A stretch of DNA of 23,060 nt from positions 1-23,060 of the forward strand of contig JAHLTZ010000140.1 in assembly GCA_025786725.1 (NCBI GenBank). The letters are read 5' to 3'. Source of the DNA: Syncephalis fuscata. Taxonomy: Eukaryota > Zoopagomycota > Zoopagomycetes > Zoopagales > Piptocephalidaceae. The notes under the pieces were generated by a model that was not told the DNA's origin, did not search any database, and saw nothing but the letters and a program-made list of their open reading frames with translations. Both the position numbers and the translations under genes were made by a program. Positions within the stretch are counted from its first letter, which is position 1, and each line of letters begins with the position of its first letter. Shown here one piece after another: positions 4,947-18,502 of the stretch.

Positions 4947-5390
4947 ATGTCATTGAACATTACTTTGTGCAATCCAAATATCAATGCAGCCTTTTCGCCA
5001 AAAATTTCATCTAAATTATTTATTACGGCCTCATACAAAACAATTGCTACTGAATTTATTACACGTATAGCAGCGGGGACATCAAACGACGCAAGAAATC
5101 CCAGGACATCAAATGATGATTATAAACTTAATTTATTTGTTATTGGAAACTTTAAACCGCTTATCGATGCAATGAATTCTAGAAAGCCATTTGATTTAGC
5201 TAAAATCGACTTTGAATATCGTATTACTATCAGTAGCAAAACTGATGTTAGGATTAAATTTCTTAAAAAAATAAAAAAATTAATGGTGAAAGTGAATTTA
5301 TATACGATTTCTGGTTATAAACAATCTAACAATAAAGAAAACTTGGCGACATCACAATTGTTTCTCGCAATAAATCATCACATGATATGA
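4947..5390 (+). CDS. hypothetical protein, 147 aa
   Basis: Not recognised. An intronless ORF with a good start context (CACCATG), the longest in this AT-rich island. The product is basic and Asn/Ile/Lys-rich, with a Lys-rich stretch around residues 104-115 and no signal peptide, membrane segment or catalytic motif that I can identify. It lies upstream of, and on the same strand as, the broken coding relic from 5572, so it may belong to the same degraded unit. In DNA this AT-rich a 147-codon ORF is unlikely but not impossible by chance. Confidence 0.35.
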   Translation: MSLNITLCNPNINAAFSPKISSKLFITASYKTIATEFITRIAAGTSNDARNPRTSNDDYKLNLFVIGNFKPLIDAMNSRKPFDLAKIDFEYRITISSKTDVRIKFLKKIKKLMVKVNLYTISGYKQSNNKENLATSQLFLAINHHMI

Positions 5391-5571
5391 GTGGTACATA
5401 GCGAAGAAAAAAGACTTATACCGTCCTTCTAATTTGCTTCATGTTGTTAGCGTTGTTGGCGAAATCTTAGCTTTTGTTTTCATCATACACACCTTACTTT
5501 TCAGTCAGCGTCGCCTTTGACCTTGGGAAATTATCCAACGGTATTTTGTACGTAACGAAATACTTAGTACT

Positions 5572-6147
5572 ATGCCGCAGTTCATGAAAGGCATGAAATC
5601 TACCAGTCAACCCAAATCTAAGCAAGCTACAACTATAGATATAGAGTTTTATATGCGTCAAATCTACAGAAACAAAATACTTATTACGGCCACCAAAATT
5701 ATAGAATTATTACGTCAACAAGTATCATTAAATGGCAGTATAGCACCATATGTACCACCAATGATAGTTGATGAGAAGCAGTAAAATTATTTGCCACACT
5801 TTTTTTTGAAGATGAAATTTATGAACTTGAAACAATATTGACTACAAAAACTATAAAACACAAAATTACAAGGCACAAACAGAAGCACAAATGAAAGCAC
5901 AAGTAGAACAACTTGAACTGGCATCACGACGACTTGCAGCACTTAAGGATAAATAATATCCAGACAACCCAATATTACGTTAAATGAACTAATAAGTGAT
6001 AATAACAATGGTAATAGTGGTAGTAATTTATTAAATTGTTTGATGGCCCAAAATAATAATTTTTTAAAGCTCATTTAACTAAGTTGGAAGCATTTCAACA
6101 TCGATTGGGAGCATTTTACCTGGACCCTGATCTGTTTAAAAATGATT
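5572..6147 (+). pseudogene. broken coding relic with coiled-coil segment
   Basis: Family not recognised. The ATG at 5572 opens a 70-codon ORF ending at 5784. Protein-like sequence then continues in successive other frames: an acidic segment from about 5787, a Gln/Glu/Lys/Ala-rich heptad-like helix about 5837-5956 (ending LAALKDK), an Asn/Ser-rich segment about 5962-6070, and a segment ending FYLDPDLFKND at 6147. Each switch needs one missing base and all four shifts go the same way; two lie beside homopolymers (T8 near 5800, T6 near 6060). No short-intron model explains them. Either a pseudogene or an assembly with under-called homopolymers; the intact product would be a coiled-coil protein of about 190 aa. 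Confidence 0.45.
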
Positions 6148-6388
6148 AATTTATATATTTGGAGTTATTTTACTTTCACATTTTTTATTTACTCATTTCA
6201 CTTTCTTTTTCTTAATATTTTTAAATACAATTAAACATCTATTCATCACTATAACATGTATAATATTACATCCAACATTAATTAATTTATGTGTAATTAT
6301 CAATACAATAATGTAATTAATTAGTTATCTTTATTATTGCTTTAATATATATATATTGTTATTTATGATATTGATTGTTCAAAATGCC
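6148..6388. other. AT-rich spacer with (TA)n run
   Basis: No coding signal seen. Contains a short (TA)n tract at about 6345-6356. Confidence 0.5.
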
Positions 6389-6619
6389 ATTTATTTAGTC
6401 AGATTGGCTATAGGAAAAGTGACTGTTTAATAAACTACTTTTTATAATAGTTATATTAATCTTGAGTTTACATCACAAATATGCCCAAAATGCAATAGTA
6501 GAATAGTAGAAAATAAAAGAGACCATTCAGATGTAATAATCCATATTGTACGTAGATGCAACAACAACAAATGCGGAATGACATGGAAGCACAATCATAT
6601 AGCTTCTATTAACATCTAA
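6389..6619 (+). pseudogene. Fanzor/TnpB-like nuclease relic, C-terminal zinc ribbon (copy A)
   Basis: The open frame 6434-6619 has no ATG and encodes the C-terminus of an OrfB_Zn_ribbon/RuvC protein. It reads EFTSQxCPKC, then a basic stretch, then RCNNNKCG, then W followed by A-S-I-N-I and a stop. This matches the known TnpB/Fanzor layout: (Y/F)TSxxCxxC, a second CxnC pair, then WNRDxNAxxNI carrying the last RuvC aspartate. Here the residue at that Asp position is Asn (WKHNH), so the nuclease would be dead even if full length. Upstream, 6389-6433 is conserved in DNA with copy C but carries tandem stops. The N-terminal body and the other RuvC motifs are not visible. Copy C lies at 17684-17911 on the minus strand. 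Confidence 0.65.
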
Positions 6620-6810
6620 TCAAGCTTTTTATACATGGCTAACAACAATAATAGTTGACCTCAATGTTTCAATGAATTTAAATAGTATGCTACATTCTTT
6701 AAATTAATAACAATATTTTAATAAAGAGTAATATAACTATGTTGTGCACAACAACGACATGACTCTGATTGGAACGAATTTTACTTTGGGAATTCAAGAT
6801 GCAGAAGTCA
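6620..6810 (+). repeat. conserved 3' region of Fanzor-like element (copy A; candidate guide RNA/right end)
   Basis: About 190 bp directly after the relic stop codon is shared with 13682-13900 (+) and with 17473-17683 (-). Well-conserved blocks include TGTTTCAATGAA, AATATTTTAATA, AGTAATATAA-TATG-TGTGCA, CATGACT and CTTTGGG. In this copy GTTGTGCACAAC (6741-6752) is a perfect palindrome. In TnpB/Fanzor elements the guide RNA is transcribed across the ORF 3' end into the right end, so the position fits; the RNA itself is inference. Confidence 0.5.
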
Positions 6811-7380
6811 CGCTGTTATGTATAACATAATTATATCACTTTTTATTAAAATATTATACATGCTATGTATTATTCCATTTTTAGCTTTTAACTTTTAGTA
6901 CTTGTTAATTGAGTTAAATAAAATGCTGCATCATATAAAATATTGTGTGGTATTTAGCATTATTATACAATCTAATTAAATTTATTAATTAGTATAGTGT
7001 AGTGCGGTTATGTCGGTACCTAAGCCCAGTACCTGGGCCTCTGGGATATCACCCATGGCGGTATGAGTTCCGTGGACGTTCGCTTCTATTGCTTGATTTG
7101 ATAAACAAAATCCCTCTACTCAGAAGGGCAAGCACTGTAGGTATTCTCTTACAGATGCTCGAATCTGCCTAACTAGAACGCTACGTAACTTTTTAACACT
7201 TGATACAAAATAAAATACAATTCAAAAAGCTTCTTCTTTATTCAAAAGTGTGTTCTGAATCCTCTTATTATGCATCAAAGATACAGCAAACACAACACGG
7301 CAATGCCGAGCTACATGATCACATTGTCATCAAAGGCTATAATTGTCATTCTTTCATCAAGTAGTCATTTTTTTTCCACA
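6811..7380. other. intergenic with GC-rich islet at 7000-7180
   Basis: Mostly AT-rich, but about 7005-7180 is markedly GC-richer. The islet holds a hairpin (GCCCAG TAC CTGGGC, about 7023-7037), a second short stem (TGGG/CCCA) and an ATG-less open frame of about 58 codons ending TAA near 7170, which reads like protein (PVPGPLGYHPW, then Leu-rich). It could be an old exon or gene relic, or a structured RNA. No tRNA, 5S or spliceosomal RNA signature was found. Confidence 0.35.
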
Positions 7381-7515
7381 ATAATATGATTTGTGACTAA
7401 AATGACTATTTTTAATAACATTCAATCTATTTAACATGATGATGATGGGTGGTGAGGGACATCAGTCATCAAATACTGATCATTATAGATTTATTATCCA
7501 ATATGCATATATCAG
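7381..7515 (-). repeat. dispersed repeat R2, copy 1 (inverted arm)
   Basis: The reverse complement matches 8116-8262 closely, including GATGACTGATGTC, CACCCATCATCATG and TAGATTG-ATGTTATTAAA. The shared frame has stops and an indel here, so the repeat looks derived from coding sequence (S-S-C-S-I-D-W-M-L-L in copies 2 and 3). With copy 2 it forms arms of about 140 bp around some 600 bp. Confidence 0.65.
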
Positions 7516-7611
7516 CACAATATGTGTTAATACTATGTATACCCGTCACTTTGTTTGCTTAACATTAAAATTATAACTAATTGACATGGTTTAGTTTGTT
7601 TATAAATAATT

Positions 7612-7830
7612 TTAATAAAACATAACTCTGTTCATATTCATATTATTTGTTTTACCAATATAACTCAGTGAACAGGCTAAGTGCGATATGTCAATTTTCA
7701 TTAATAAAAGAGTCGGAACCATACCGACAACGGCCATAGACAGCGTATAGCCAATATATAATAAAATGGTAAATATTATAATGAATACGCAATATTGAAC
7801 GAGATTAGCAATGTTCAAGTTATTGAACAT
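7612..7830 (-). CDS. small hydrophobic ORF, 72 aa
   Basis: Not recognised. Lies between the two inverted R2 arms. The product has two probable membrane segments in residues 10-45 and an Asn/Met-rich tail. A segment around D-I-S-H-L-A resembles D-V-A-H-L-A in the minus-strand translation near 12870-12890, suggesting a degraded family, but the DNA match is short. Could be chance: hydrophobic ORFs arise easily in AT-rich DNA. Confidence 0.15.
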   Translation of the reverse strand: MFNNLNIANLVQYCVFIIIFTILLYIGYTLSMAVVGMVPTLLLMKIDISHLACSLSYIGKTNNMNMNRVMFY

Positions 7831-8115
7831 ATATGCATAAGTAAATGGTCAATATTAGTTGAATTTATTAATAATAGTTCTAGAACAAAAATAAAACAGT
7901 TTTGGATAGAGAAAGTCTAGACGAGTATAAGATGCTATATAAATTGATAAATGTACGGTAAGAAAACATATAAACCAATGTTAAAGGTACAGTGTGTATA
8001 GTGCAATGAATGGAATGAGTAAATTATATTGAAACATATCAACAATAGAATGTGTCTAGTATATTGTATGCTGATACATAGTAGTGTGGGACAGAATGGG
8101 AATGATATATGTATA

Positions 8116-8262
8116 CTGAATATATGCATACTGGATAACGAATCTATAATGATGAGTATTTTGATGACTGATGTCACTCATCACCCATCATCATGTTCAA
8201 TAGATTGGATGTTATTAAATATTAGTCATTTAACACCAAATCATACTGAATGGCTAATAAAT
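8116..8262 (+). repeat. dispersed repeat R2, copy 2 (inverted arm)
   Basis: Most intact copy of R2. Its frame is open here and ends at 8274 (SCSIDWMLLN, then NHTEWLINCLM). It pairs as an inverted repeat with 7381-7515, and its right half recurs in direct orientation at 13369-13450. Family of origin not recognised. Confidence 0.65.
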
Positions 8263-8952: not shown

Positions 8953-10420
8953 TTAAGGCTTCTGGCCATAAAAGTAATAAGCATGAACAAGCGTTCTATG
9001 CTCATCGCAGTCTTGCCATAGCTCGTCGAGAAGCTTGTCGTATTCCTCTTCCGATGAAACGACACCAATAATAGCGGCCAATTTTTTCAGGCTACGTAAT
9101 GCCTCATCGATATTGTTGCGCATCATACGACCAGAAATGCCAGCCCATTCGCCCACGGGAAATTCTACAATGCGCGCCTGAATCTCTATGTAGCCAGCTC
9201 GTTTCATTAGTTTGTCAAGACGACGAATAATGGAAAGATCAAGGCCACGATAAGCAAAACACTGCTCGACAATCTTATTTACGCGATAGCCGATATCACC
9301 GACATTCTGAAAGCTGAAGTCGGTATCAGCCAGCTCGAGAAAACCGCCAGACTGTGTAATGCGAAACAGTTCGCCTACATGTGTTGGCCAGAAAGACGCG
9401 GGGATGGCACCACTCATCAAGCGTTGGTGAACAAAGTCGTAGCGATTCGAAGAGAATGACAATCCTAATATAGCAAATAAAAGGTAAATAATCGAGTATA
9501 TATCATTTATATTAGTTGTATTTACCTTCCAGTATATTTCCCAATTCAAAAGCACAATTGTTTGGCATGTCTGTTTGCATAAAAATGTCGGCAATATCAA
9601 CGCCAATTAGGCTGGCCTTTGGATAATCGCGCGCCACTTCCTTCATCCACATACCGGTGCCACAGCCCACGTCTAAAATCCGTTTTGGGTCGTTGACTGG
9701 CGCGAGGTATGTGCGACGAAGTACATAGCGAATAATGTTGTGCTGCGTATTGAGTCTATCCGTTTCATCAAGATCTGTAGGCCATAAATAATTGGCCATA
9801 TCTTCATTTAGCATACGGCGGCCATCTTGCCAAATGTATTTAGCTGGCACAATGCTTGTTGAGCTATTGGAACCTGTTGTACTATGGTCATTGTTGTCGG
9901 ATTTAATCAGCTTAGGATAGCAGTTTTCGTGGCCGAAAGAACCGCCTTCGCTATGACTACGCATCATACCATTAGAAAAATCGTTGGCACTACTGTAACT
10001 ATTGCTATGCGTGTGCGGCCCCTTTACTTGACAAGGAACGTAGTTGGTATCAAGTAGTGCATGGGCGACACAATCTGCACATCCACCGCAGTGCACGAAA
10101 CCATTGGAAAACTTTTGAATATGTTCGCCAATATTTGCGGTCATTTGGTCCATACTACGATTATTGTGGACGTGTGCGGATGTTAAATCAACGCTTAAAC
10201 CAAGATGCGATTTATTGCGTCGTATTCCCGGAATACTTTGTAGAAATTTAGAACCTTTCTTGGTTCCAGGATCAGCTGTAGGAAGTACTTCATGCTGCAG
10301 CTGTTGCATACACAATGGTGATGGGCGTCGATGCTGATGAGGCTGTCGACGGCAAGCATGCTTTCGCGCAGCTTTTGAATCACTTGCCGTGCTTTTACGT
10401 GATGATGTAGTATTGCCCAT
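8953..10420 (-). CDS. SAM-dependent methyltransferase, UMTA/LaeA-like (2 exons)
   Basis: Predicted class I SAM-dependent methyltransferase, paralogous to the gene at 1155-3676; substrate unknown. Exon 1 is 10420-9526 and exon 2 is 9464-8953; the 61-nt intron (GTAAAT...ATTAG) splits a Gly codon, giving 468 aa. The start is Met-Gly-Asn-Thr-Thr-Ser-Ser-Arg-Lys, a textbook N-myristoylation context, followed by a basic Arg/His/Lys stretch to residue 32. Residues 33-195 are low-complexity with a Cys cluster (HCGGCADC, 110-117). The family entry motif WQDGRRMLN is at 197-205, DETDRLNTQH near 218-227, SAM motif I (ILDVGCGTGMW) at 248-258 and IGVD at 272-275; SGGFLEL and PVGEWAG follow in exon 2. It is convergent with the paralogue across a 5.3-kb repeat-rich island. 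Domain call strong; membrane anchoring inferred. Confidence 0.9.
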
Positions 10421-13681: not shown

Positions 13682-13900
13682 TAATATTTAGTCAATTTTT
13701 CTACACATGACGAACAATAACAATCAACCTCAAATGTTCCAAAGAAATCAAACAGTATGTTACATTATTTATTTAAATTAATTTATTAATAATATTTTAA
13801 TAGAAAGTAATATAATTATGTTGTGCATAACAATGGCATGACTTCAATTGAAATAAAACTTTGCTTTGGGGACTTGAAATAGGCGGCGCAAAGTAAAATT
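13682..13900 (+). repeat. conserved 3' region of Fanzor-like element (copy B)
   Basis: Matches the sequence downstream of the zinc-ribbon relic in copies A and C, beginning at the codons for the terminal Asn-Ile and stop (TTAATATTTAG) and running through GTTGTGCATAAC, CATGACTT and CTTTGGGGAC. It ends AAAGTAAAATTC, close to AAAGTAAAATGC in copy C. The zinc-ribbon coding part is missing, so this is a 5'-truncated copy or a short non-autonomous derivative. Confidence 0.6.
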
Positions 13901-13983: not shown

Positions 13984-15974
13984 ATGACCACTACAAAGCC
14001 TATTGAACGACAGAATAAGCTGCTTTTTATACTGATTGACGGCGTCGGCGACGTGTCGGTCTCTTCTTTGGCGGGGAAAACACCTTTGCAAGCGGCACAT
14101 TTACCTCACTTGGACCGAATTGCGCGTATGTACAACTATTTATAAAGCATAAGTAACATGATTGTGAACACGTAATATCGTTGCTAGTTAAAGGTGTCAA
14201 CGGCTTGCTTGATCCAGTAGAGCCAGGACTGGCGTGTGGATCGGATACAGCCCATTTATCTTTGTTCGGCTACAATCCAAGGCAGTAAGTTTTATGTTAA
14301 CGATACCGTTTATTTATAAATATTAAAAATCCTACTAATATATATTGGATATTGGTAGATATTACCGCGGACGAGGAGCATTTGAATCGATGGGTGCTGG
14401 TCTTTCAATGATACCAGGCGATATTGCTTTCAAGGTTAGTAGACCAACTTTTATATTGGTTTTGTGTAGCGTCGATTCATACTAGGATTAGTCAAATTTT
14501 GCTACTCTAGACCGTGCATCCGGCATTGTTCTAAAACGTAGAGCGGATCGTAACTTTGAAGGCCTTGGACCACAATTATGTGCCGATTTAAACGGTCTGT
14601 AAGTACTTTGACTAGACGATAAACAATCATTACTATTATCATTGTTATACTAAATGTATCATTTAATAGCAAACTACCATCATTTCCTAACCATAGCGTT
14701 GCTGTTAAATATGCAACGGAACATAGGTAAGTGAATTTATTACTTATTGACCTATTACAAATCTAAGTGTTTTATCAATTAGATGTGGCGTTCGTGTTAG
14801 AGGTCCAGGTCTAACCGATATGATTACAGGTACAGATCCATTAAAAGACAAGTCAGTTACTTTAAATAATAATATAATAATACTAATTGACTTAATAGTC
14901 TTCCACTTGTCAAGTGTACACCGACTGATGATAGTGAAGAGGCCGAACTAACAAGCAAAGTAGGCTAACTCTAGCTGATAATGTAGTTTATATTAATAAT
15001 ATAGCAATGGGTGGCTGTTTAGCTTGTCAATGAGCTTTCCGACTGTATTTATAACATACTTGTCAATCATCCAATTAATGAGCAACGTGTAAAAGCGGGC
15101 AAATCTTTGGCCAATTGCGTTTTACTACGTGGATGTGGGTCTCGTATCAAGGTAATAGTTGATATGTTATAGAATTAATACTGAATAATGATATATAGAT
15201 GCCTACAGTAGAAGAAATACATGGGTTAAAATCATTTATGGTTGCGCCAACATGTATTATCGCCGGTTTAGGAGAAACCATTGGTATGGGTAAGTAAAGT
15301 ATTGTGTTGCAAGTAACCGCATTATAAACAGTTGTATAGATATTTGTGTGGTTCCGGGTGCTACTGGCGATTACTTTACCAATATTCTGGCTAAAGGAGA
15401 GGCGGTCACTGATAAATTATTGCATAGTGGTAAATTATTAGTAAATGGTGATGATAATTGTAATTAATTGTGAATATTAGAATCGCCGTATAATTTTGCC
15501 TTTTTACACATTAAAGCAGTTGATGATGCGGGACATGATAAAAATATTGAATACAAAGCAAGTAAATTGTAATAAATTTTAAATTGTATCATCTAACATT
15601 TTACAGATCCGATTCTTACAAGAAATTGATCAAATGATCGGTAAAGTTGTGGAGAAACTAGAGGATTATACAAAAGCATCGAGTGAACATAAGGTAGATA
15701 TTGGCTTGATTGCTTATTGGTCTAGCTATTTATTTAATATTTAATTGAATAGGTTACGCTCTGTGTGACGGGTGATCATTCAACGCCCGTGCTCTATGGC
15801 GATCATAGTTGTGAACCCGTTCCATTTACTGCATTACGCGTCGATCAGATGCCATTACCGCCAGACAATGTCGCAACATTCGATGAAATGGCTGCAGCCT
15901 ACGGTGGGCTGGGTCGTTTTAGTGGACAAGATGTCATGTCGTTACTGAAAACGCTCATGACCATGTCAAATTAG
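13984..15974 (+). CDS. apgM: 2,3-bisphosphoglycerate-independent phosphoglycerate mutase, archaeal type (13 exons)
   Basis: Interconverts 3- and 2-phosphoglycerate in glycolysis and gluconeogenesis; cytosolic, metal-dependent, alkaline-phosphatase superfamily. The start is in a perfect GCCACCATG context. Exons: 13984-14125, 14188-14284, 14359-14434, 14492-14598, 14670-14726, 14783-14851, 14899-14959, 15023-15151, 15199-15289, 15340-15429, 15481-15557, 15607-15693, 15753-15974, giving 434 aa with all phases consistent. Motifs: metal-binding DGVGD (19-23), GKTPLQAA (31-38), GVNGLLDPV, the catalytic Ser in CGSDTAHLS (Ser66), YYRGRGAFE, DDAGHD (321-326) and TGDHSTP (367-373). The length is near that of archaeal enzymes (about 400 aa). 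All introns are GT-AG except intron 11 (15558-15606), which needs a GC donor (GCAAGT) to keep frame. Its stop is 20 bases from that of the convergent NTAQ1 gene, so their 3' UTRs probably overlap. Confidence 0.93.
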
Positions 15975-16968: not shown

Positions 16969-17472
16969 TGTAATGTGTTGTGTGTTAATGATTGTGAGAA
17001 GAAAAGTATATTTTATTTAGTCAATGAGATTAATAATTACGTGCTATGTTGTTAACAAGGTCAGCGTGATCATTGATGTGTTTAATAACGGTCGTGCTGA
17101 TATGTGATTTTCAACCTATGCTTATTTTAATGATATACACGACATTGTTTTTATGGTTTTGCACACTGAAATGATATATTCTATTATTCAGTTATGCATA
17201 ACGTATACGTATTTAAATAAACTGTACATGGAAAGTATCAGAGATGCGACTGATGCCATCATCGGCGCACTGTTTACTATCAATTTGATACTGTTCGTAT
17301 TGTATTATCGGCCGATTATAGCGATTTAATCAAATTTAGCCAACATTTTATTTCGAACTACAATTTAATGGCTATATTAAATACAATTGACCATGCAGCG
17401 ATTAAACTTTCTACACTTATACAGATGATCAGAAAAACTACACTGATTATTAAATATACAAATGTCTTGGTT
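16969..17472. other. intergenic region upstream of NTAQ1
   Basis: AT-rich; presumed to contain the NTAQ1 promoter. The 61-codon plus-strand ORF 17368-17553 runs antisense into the Fanzor-like repeat and is not a gene. Nothing else recognised. Confidence 0.5.
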
Positions 17473-17683
17473 GCATTTTACTTTGCTTCTACATCTGTCC
17501 CCAAAGCACAATTTGTTCTAATCAGAGTCATGTCGTTATTATGCACACCATAGTTATATTACTTCCTATTAAAATACTGTTAATAAACTGATTTAAATGA
17601 AGAATGTAACATACTATTTGATTTCATTGAAACATTTAAGGCCGATTATTATTGCTGTTGGCTATGTGTAGAAAGATTGATTG
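17473..17683 (-). repeat. conserved 3' region of Fanzor-like element (copy C)
   Basis: The minus strand follows the zinc-ribbon relic and matches copies A and B through AATGTTTCAATGAAATCAAA, AGTATTTTAATA, AAGTAATATAACTATG, GACATGACTCTGATT and CTTTGGGGAC, ending near AAAGTAAAATGC. Confidence 0.6.
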
Positions 17684-17911
17684 AATATTAATAAAAGCCA
17701 TATGATTGCAATTTCATGTCATTCCGCATTTGTTGTTGTTACATTTATGTACAGTGTGGATTATTGCATCTGAATGGTCTCTTTTATTTTCTAATCTTCT
17801 ACTATTACATTCTGGATATCTTTGTGTTGTAAAATCAAGATTGCTATAATTAGTATAAAAAGTAGTTTATTAAACAACCACTTTTCCTATAACCAATCTG
17901 ACTAAATAAAA
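17684..17911 (-). pseudogene. Fanzor/TnpB-like nuclease relic, C-terminal zinc ribbon (copy C)
   Basis: Inverted copy of 6389-6619, roughly 80% identical by eye. The minus-strand coding segment 17839-17684 retains the layout TTQ-x-x-P-x-C, a KRDHSD block, KCNNNKCGMT and a terminal Asn-Ile. It has lost the first zinc-ligand Cys (TGC to TAT), carries an in-frame TGA where the conserved Trp was, and has lost the normal stop. As in copy A, the codon at the RuvC-III Asp position is AAT (Asn). Confidence 0.62.
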
Positions 17912-18502
17912 AAGTCAAATTACAATAGCCTCAGTGTCTTAAAAAGAAGTAAATTTGTTTTGATATTAATACAAAACGGGCTACGAACTAATCTTCAAAA
18001 CTATCACGGTTACACATATAAATTTAGTTGTCAATTGAAGCAAATAGAATATTCTAATGATGCGTTATTCTACTATTTTAGTTGAGCTATCATGCTGTGC
18101 TGTATTTAGCAGTAATATAAAATTGAAAATAATAATACCAGAATTCACACATGCTATTTAGATTTCCATAGAAGGACGTAGTTAACGACGATACATATTC
18201 AAAATAGGTAATAGTCATGCTTTAGGCCATACTATTTTAGTCGAATAATCATGTCACATTACAATCAGTAGTCATTGAGGTATAAAAATAAACAAACTTG
18301 ATGTTTCAAGTGTGCTATTTTGTATTCTACACTAATGAGCTTGACACATGATTTTGTATCAATGCCTGTTGAGTTCCAATCGGCTTGTGCCTAAATGATT
18401 ATAAATTCTACAGTAGTTAGTGTTTTTCTTCAAATTAGCATACAACTTAGTGTCTCAAATTTTACTTAGAAAAAATATATAGACAAAAATTCTGTTTTCA
18501 GT
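17912..18502. other. intergenic region upstream of kinase-like gene
   Basis: AT-rich with no supported gene. A short imperfect direct repeat (TACTATTTTAGT followed by ATCATG) occurs near 18070 and 18230. Presumed promoter of the downstream gene; no clear TATA placement was assigned. Confidence 0.45.

Follow-up and report, generated by a model that had tools for sequence, protein, structure and literature searches.

The window, that is, the whole stretch of DNA analyzed, is one entire contig of 23,060 bp in the 28.95-Mb, 299-contig assembly of Syncephalis fuscata, which we take to be a mycoparasitic member of the Zoopagomycota. The alignment of 31 copies and the analysis of their ends place in it, at 6161 to about 6810 (+), what appears to be a whole nonautonomous, Fanzor-derived element of the "ghost" kind, bounded by terminal inverted repeats (TIRs) and deprived of its right tip. 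Agreement between 30 of these copies (all but the near-duplicate L002) is 0.74 to 0.93 over 6160 to 6799 and 0.45 to 0.58 outside 6160 to 6839. The left TIR (family form GGAGCTACTGTACTTTGACT) lies at 6161 to 6180 (+), where the best left-tip match starts at 6161 with 5 mismatches; since best matches in shuffled flanks have at least 5 mismatches (median, 9), and the value for the window is this minimum, the tip was placed by alignment. The noncoding 5′ part of the element follows at 6181 to 6466 (+), as delimited by alignment with short and longer copies. Its beginning (from approximately 6168 to 6217, overlapping the TIR) is common to longer, Fanzor-bearing relatives, the remainder to 6466 has no recognizable Fanzor coding, and 6220 to 6466 is a different, noncoding sequence common to the short copies. 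A zinc-ribbon remnant occupies 6467 to 6616 (+), followed at 6617 to 6810 (+) by a right-end block that could be aligned in 24 of the 31 copies and is found at two other sites of the window. Within this block, 6776 to 6788 (+) is the 5′ arm of a right-end hairpin whose matching 3′ arm (approximately CAAAGTAAAATTC) is absent from the window copy. Fused at the lost right tip is an inverted fragment of a second copy (6811 to 6855, −), 84% complementary to 6712 to 6756; among 48 loci, only the window and the near-identical L002 carry this 6810/6811 junction. Because its right tip is gone, the window copy cannot display a target-site duplication.

A reading of the window from its sequence alone had described a block of about 190 bp downstream of the ribbon, recurring at two other loci. 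Both recurrences were found, at 17486 to 17910 (−) and 13715 to 13857 (+), and the block is a transposon right end; it is not the entire repeated unit, since the whole element from 6161 to about 6810 repeats. The first belongs to a second, shorter copy of 464 bp (17469 to 17932, −), defined by an own-genome DNA search and by tip and flank analysis. Hardly any sequence separates its left repeat from the conserved core, a stop lies inside its zinc ribbon, and 17486 to 17910 (−) matches bases 2 to 419 of the 422-base query at 83%, zinc ribbon included. Its flanks, in element orientation, are AAGACACT / AAGACATT (at 17933 to 17940 and 17461 to 17468), agreeing at 7 of 8 bases. The other, identified by within-window repeat comparison, is a third, truncated copy (13715 to 13857, +) consisting of the right-end part only.

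The surroundings include a second repeat with imperfect inverted ends at 7382 to 8247 (7385 to 7512 versus 8120 to 8245), which accompanies 6850 to 7001 in L006, L017, L027, and L044; extra window DNA at about 7002 to 7380 is missing from L017. In L017, L027, L006, and the window at 6811 to 7001, element copies stand tail to tail with an inverted piece of their own element, which continues into the 6850-to-8247 repeat, and these joins look as if a larger composite had moved or formed repeatedly. Elsewhere in the window, a methyltransferase open reading frame (ORF) lies at 9512 to 10420 (−), and the sequence after 13991 (13991 to 14300), just beyond the truncated repeat, resembles, by eye, the beginning of a phosphoglycerate mutase-type gene. 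The window is collinear with contig C278 (14000 to 16500 versus C278:775988-778488 at 99%; 5001 to 7316 at 96%), and judging from this match it may duplicate C278 or be a second haplotype that the assembly left uncollapsed.

The zinc-ribbon remnant and its decay

The frame from 6434 (+) reads TTFYNSYINLEFTSQICPKCNSRIVENKRDHSDVIIHIVRRCNNNKCGMTWKHNHIASINI, closes with a TAA stop at 6617 to 6619, and encodes the ribbon CPKC...CNNNKCG...ASINI. The sequence-only reading had called this segment Fanzor/TnpB-like, and profile and structure comparisons bear it out: PF07282 (Cas12f1-like_TNB) matches the translated segment with an E value of 9.1e-6 and 26.2 bits, 0.1 bit under the curated cutoff of 26.3 bits (24.1 bits in the own-genome search), and the best PDB match is the Fanzor1 of Guillardia theta (E = 0.002), with RNA polymerase zinc ribbons ranking behind it (E ≥ 0.24). 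The ribbon is also homologous to that of the longer copies L049/L017, L050/L018, and L051/L019. The window match exceeds chance, yet it would be weak taken alone. The segment 6467 to 6616 (FTSQICPKC...RCNNNKCGMTWKHNHIASINI) is a genuine, though decayed, zinc-ribbon (TNB) end of the TnpB/Fanzor type with its RuvC-III motif. The ribbon proposed for 6434 to 6619 hence stands, without its start at 6434, as homology to Fanzor-bearing relatives begins at about 6467. No coding for RuvC-I or RuvC-II is present upstream of the ribbon in the window copy. The Asn in place of the RuvC-III Asp is not taken here as a sign of inactivity, since Guillardia theta Fanzor1 (GtFz1) has Asn there too (PMC11423790).

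In principle, the remnant ORF could encode a small zinc-ribbon protein retained for some independent function, and some features of the 30-copy alignment favor this: 18 copies keep the 150-nt ribbon length, 20 have a multiple of three, and 10 are fully open. However, variation at codon positions 1, 2, and 3 is 0.084, 0.108, and 0.059, so that third positions vary least and second positions most, the opposite of what protein selection produces, and the third-position excess that would signal such selection is missing from the ribbon alignment. These rates rule out the candidate, and we regard a retained protein as scarcely credible. Nor was a complete ORF under protein selection found, as only 10 of 30 ribbons are open and the longest PF07282 frame of the genome has 168 residues. 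Substitutions per 100 sites are 16.4 for C>T and 14.0 for G>A versus 5.0 for T>C and 4.7 for A>G. RIP-like mutation was considered and rejected, C>T having no CpA preference and G>A being highest at CpG (0.283); the changes are AT-biased decay without a RIP signature. The window copy no longer encodes the family protein, and its right tip is destroyed.

Family ends, Fanzor-richer relatives, and mobilization

The own-genome DNA search yielded at least 40 long matches (301 to 422 of 422 bases, the two window sites included) and at least 3 short ones, the best 40 of 565 being scored; among the matches listed, most copies are 80 to 84% identical to the window copy. In the 31-copy alignment, the family begins with GGAGCTACTGTACTTTGACTYTYACA, and its right end, read backwards, is GGTTGAATTTTACTTTGACTCCCACA; by eye, the two form imperfect TIRs. 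Both tips match well in 14 of the 31 copies, which are 464 to 674 bp long (median, 635.5). Genome-wide, the family form of the left tip occurs 245 times at ≤3 mismatches (reversed control, 1), a count that spans more than one subfamily, since by eye the tip also ends the second Fanzor lineage described below. A 30-base core pattern has 142 matches and a 35-base ribbon pattern 212 (control, 0 for each), and haplotype duplicates may inflate 142, 212, and 245 alike.

The flanks of the copies point to an 8-bp target-site duplication. In the 20 of 31 usable copies, a mean of 4.3 of 8 flanking bases agree, versus 2.97 ± 0.28 for exchanged flanks (reached by 0 of 5,000), but this set contained near-duplicates (L001/L002, L003/L005, and L004/L007) and copies whose right tip is doubtful (L001, L002, L054, L062, and L068). 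The cleaned set of 13 copies gives 4.62 of 8 versus 3.02 ± 0.36 (again 0 of 5,000), with flank lengths of 5 to 7 and 9 to 11 at chance level; 4 of these 13 agree at just 1 or 2 of the 8 bases. Among individual loci, L039 and L008 have exact 8/8 duplications, ACTGGTAT flanks L042 on both sides (by eye, in a copy below the tip threshold used), and comparison of the filled site L057 with the related empty site L056 shows, by eye, ATYGATYT duplicated.

Relatives with more Fanzor coding exist in the same genome. PF07282 has 71 matches at an E value of ≤0.01, 26 of them over the cutoff; three frames at other loci score 33.7 to 39.3 bits and a fourth 19.9. No intact intronless Fanzor was found among the 71 (an intron-split Fanzor may exist), a protein search reading through stops found no full-length Fanzor among the 41 candidates scored, and PF01385 (OrfB_IS605) has 0 matches in the genome. 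The search of the assembly for full-length copies thus returned partial longer Fanzor relatives and no full-length one. Five of these relatives (L049, L050, L051, L057, and L062) have the left part and the ribbon in common. The window-type right end is full in L049 and L050, reaches about 6701 in L051 and L062, and is partial in L057; 6468 to 6788 aligns to the longer copies L017/L049 and L018/L050, themselves partial. The right end is therefore common to the short copies and to Fanzor-bearing, if incomplete, loci of the same genome.

A second Fanzor lineage comprises L052 to L055, L059, L060, and L065, with better frames (...IPLIAFGAARFATSMKGK...DIDEYNTSKVCSKC...WQRDVNASRNM), and L056 to L058 and L067 form a third. 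A protein search with the second-lineage frame, limited to proteins of 72 to 229 residues, found two proteins, both from Rhizopus delemar; the 131-residue frame of L059 is 51% identical over 92% to a PF07282 protein of that fungus. By tblastn, the Rhizopus protein has matches at 14 of the 20 loci inspected (nothing at the other 6), and at 8 of the 20 the match extends to an IAFG stretch preceding the ribbon. This IAFG/IAYG motif, also seen by eye in L049, we take to be RuvC-II. What precedes the ribbon at these 8 loci thus aligns with the corresponding part of a PF07282 protein, and the unrelated upstream protein that would have spoken against a Fanzor origin did not turn up among these partial copies. 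Against the PDB, the second-lineage frame retrieves Cas12g first (E = 0.048) and the Spizellomyces Fanzor at an E value of 0.75; we keep the label Fanzor, not Cas12, because of the published context of the Rhizopus protein, the eukaryotic host, and the PDB match of the window segment. An AlphaFold model of the 131-residue frame was useless (mean pLDDT, 33.5). In L052 to L055, L013, and L059, inverted window-type element sequence (in L059, the left-end part only) precedes the second lineage, and the two seem to have traveled together. Rhizopus delemar presumably belongs to a fungal order parasitized by Syncephalis, and its protein being the closest to the second lineage raises the question of host-parasite transfer.

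How did the window acquire its remnant? In the sequence-only picture, a once-complete Fanzor element degenerated at this locus, which would agree with a Fanzor-derived ribbon at the 3′ end adjoining the right end. However, 26 of 47 other loci align without interruption across the ribbon, beginning left of 6300, and have the gutted 5′ part in common, so that the deletion preceded insertion; this and the 8-bp duplications indicate that the gutted form is common to the copies and moved as such. We consider decay in place highly improbable, and the claim that the locus preserves the 3′ end of an RNA-guided nuclease element is upheld for the Fanzor-lineage ribbon and the right end, not for degeneration on the spot. 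Very probably, 6161 to 6810 is instead a decayed copy of a nonautonomous, TIR-flanked DNA transposon that arose by internal deletion of a Fanzor1-carrying element in an early-diverging fungus. Supporting this are the ends, the 8-bp duplication, the copy number, the relation to Fanzor-richer copies, and the decay of coding without protein selection, all observed. Internal deletion would have produced the nonautonomous copies, which a transposase acting on their ends would have moved in trans; the Fanzor tail may have been retained since it adjoins the right end, which is needed for mobility and may once have served as the template for a guide RNA (omegaRNA).

No intact parent element or transposase with the family ends was found in the genome. 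MULE genes are present (18 matches), and the superfamily MuDR/MULE makes duplications of 8 to 11 bp. One MULE element, at 1911 to 4322 of L070 (contig C90), has TIRs of about 205 bp, a 9-bp duplication (TACTTTTTA, by eye), and a transposase in several open pieces; its ends differ from those of the family, as does its duplication (9 versus 8 bp). The hAT transposase profile PF05699 has 0 matches in the genome, and equally 0 in 14 control genomes. A 6.5-kb pair of inward-facing tips on contig C267 was rejected as an autonomous element: its ends form a 678-bp inverted repeat with arms 99% identical, the locus has no MULE match, and none of its five ORFs of at least 100 residues matches a transposase family (two have weak EST1 matches).

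The right end, the guide-RNA question, and known systems

At the very right end of the family, a 13-bp hairpin (GAATTTTGCTTTG...CAAAGTAAAATTC) was spotted by eye, ending a few bases before the tip. It keeps 10 to 13 of 13 pairs (mean, 11.1) in all 24 copies tested (21 of the 31 short copies, those with usable tips, and 3 longer ones), with arms positioned where they best fit the majority form, a choice that favors pairing. Sliding the arms by 1 to 3 bases lowers pairing to 4.5 to 6.4 of 13, and the best 13-mer self-complement is 10.5 at the right end (24 copies) versus 6.95 at 20 left ends. Among the tiled windows, mean folding z is lowest for the right-end 66-mers (21 copies), at −0.64, a small effect. 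These observations suggest an asymmetric hairpin at the right end of the ancestral element, of the sort that the end of an omegaRNA might have.

The sequence-only reading had gone further and taken the downstream block for a guide-RNA scaffold. Covariation gives this no support. Own arms pair at 11.08 versus 11.03 for arms swapped between copies (7,785 of 20,000 shuffles as high), and because swapped arms pair equally well, there is no compensatory change. The RNAalifold consensus of 26 right ends (24 of the 31 short copies and 2 longer ones, leaving out L002 as a duplicate; L038, L043, L054, L062, and L068 for their divergent ends; and L066 for a gap) is weak, −3.1 kcal/mol, and missed the terminal hairpin; its helices covary no better than shuffles (215 of 500 as high), and Rfam has no match for the block. 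The fold of window 6620 to 6830 (z = −1.83) was discarded as scaffold evidence, resting partly on the local palindrome 6712 to 6756/6811 to 6855. A scaffold in the downstream block is thus at most a possibility, and the window copy lacks the hairpin 3′ arm.

The closest precedent is found in Spizellomyces punctatus, for which Saito et al. 2023 (PMC10432273) report 42 Fanzor (Fz) loci and 134 Fz-less "ghost" loci of approximately 550 nt between inverted repeats, and describe ghost omegaRNAs from four loci as active with SpuFz1 in human cells. The window copy is a member of this known kind. Like the ghost Spu-1 as described there, the Syncephalis copies are short (464 to 674 bp versus approximately 550 nt), numerous, inverted-repeat-flanked loci with no Fz ORF (the window copy being without its right repeat), and have right-end sequence in common with Fanzor-bearing relatives. 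Unlike Spu-1 in that account, they retain about 150 nt of Fanzor coding (the TNB), have different ends, are decayed, have no intact Fanzor partner that we could find, and are known from DNA alone.

This precedent invites the reading that the family consists of functional ghosts, whose right ends would give omegaRNAs with flanking DNA as the guide, acting in trans with a Fanzor made elsewhere. The Spizellomyces loci, the hairpin at a right end whose left counterpart has none, and the lowest folding z of that end speak for it. Weighing on the other side are helices without covariation, arms found by eye and placed in a way that favors pairing, the lack of an intact intronless Fanzor among the 71 PF07282 matches, and a window copy without 3′ arm and tip. 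We find functional ghosts unlikely overall. From sequence, the family may have a role in supplying guide RNA, which is unlikely for the window copy.

As nonautonomous transposons of Fanzor origin, the Syncephalis elements also resemble other systems in part. Bao and Jurka 2013 (PMC3627910) report Fanzor1 from Rhizopus, Phycomyces, and Mucor, in TIR elements that resemble MuDR, make 9-bp duplications, and lack a transposase. Like these (ROr-4, PBl-3, and MCi-4), the Syncephalis elements join TIRs to Fanzor1 without a transposase, and one lineage is closest to the Rhizopus delemar protein (51%); whereas the Mucorales elements, as presented, carry Fanzor, duplicate 9 bp, and have MuDR-type ends, the Syncephalis duplication is 8 bp, and its ends were compared with one own-genome MULE. 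As in the TnpB elements IS200/IS605 and IS607, the ORF closes with the zinc ribbon and RuvC-III, next to the right end; unlike those elements, which the same authors describe as lacking TIRs and target duplications, the Syncephalis family has both, in a genome with no PF01385 match. Size, TIRs, target duplication, copy number, and lack of coding capacity are those of MITEs. MITEs are short nonautonomous TIR transposons; the Syncephalis family differs in being Fanzor derived and in its asymmetric right-end hairpin.

A far-reaching scenario, which we rate as very unlikely, would have a Mucorales-like Fanzor1 arrive with or from the hosts and lose its nuclease, while the hairpins of well over 100 ghost right ends still yield guide RNAs, a genome-wide guide store serving a hidden, intron-broken Fanzor or the host's Fanzor during parasitism. 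More immediately, PF07282 matches in such genomes can be noncoding repeats, not nucleases, which calls for caution in annotation. Among the literature matches listed, there is no report of Fanzor in Syncephalis and no mention of Zoopagomycota in work on Fanzor or RNA-guided systems of fungi; the present family extends Fanzor-derived ghost elements to this phylum. It further offers a deletion series that runs from copies richer in Fanzor coding, via ribbon-only copies, to minimal copies of 464 bp. The copies recovered, which were found with right-side queries, keep the right side and little of the left. If upheld by a census of left tips, this right-side retention would test whether it is transposition or guide RNA that preserves the right ends of ghosts.
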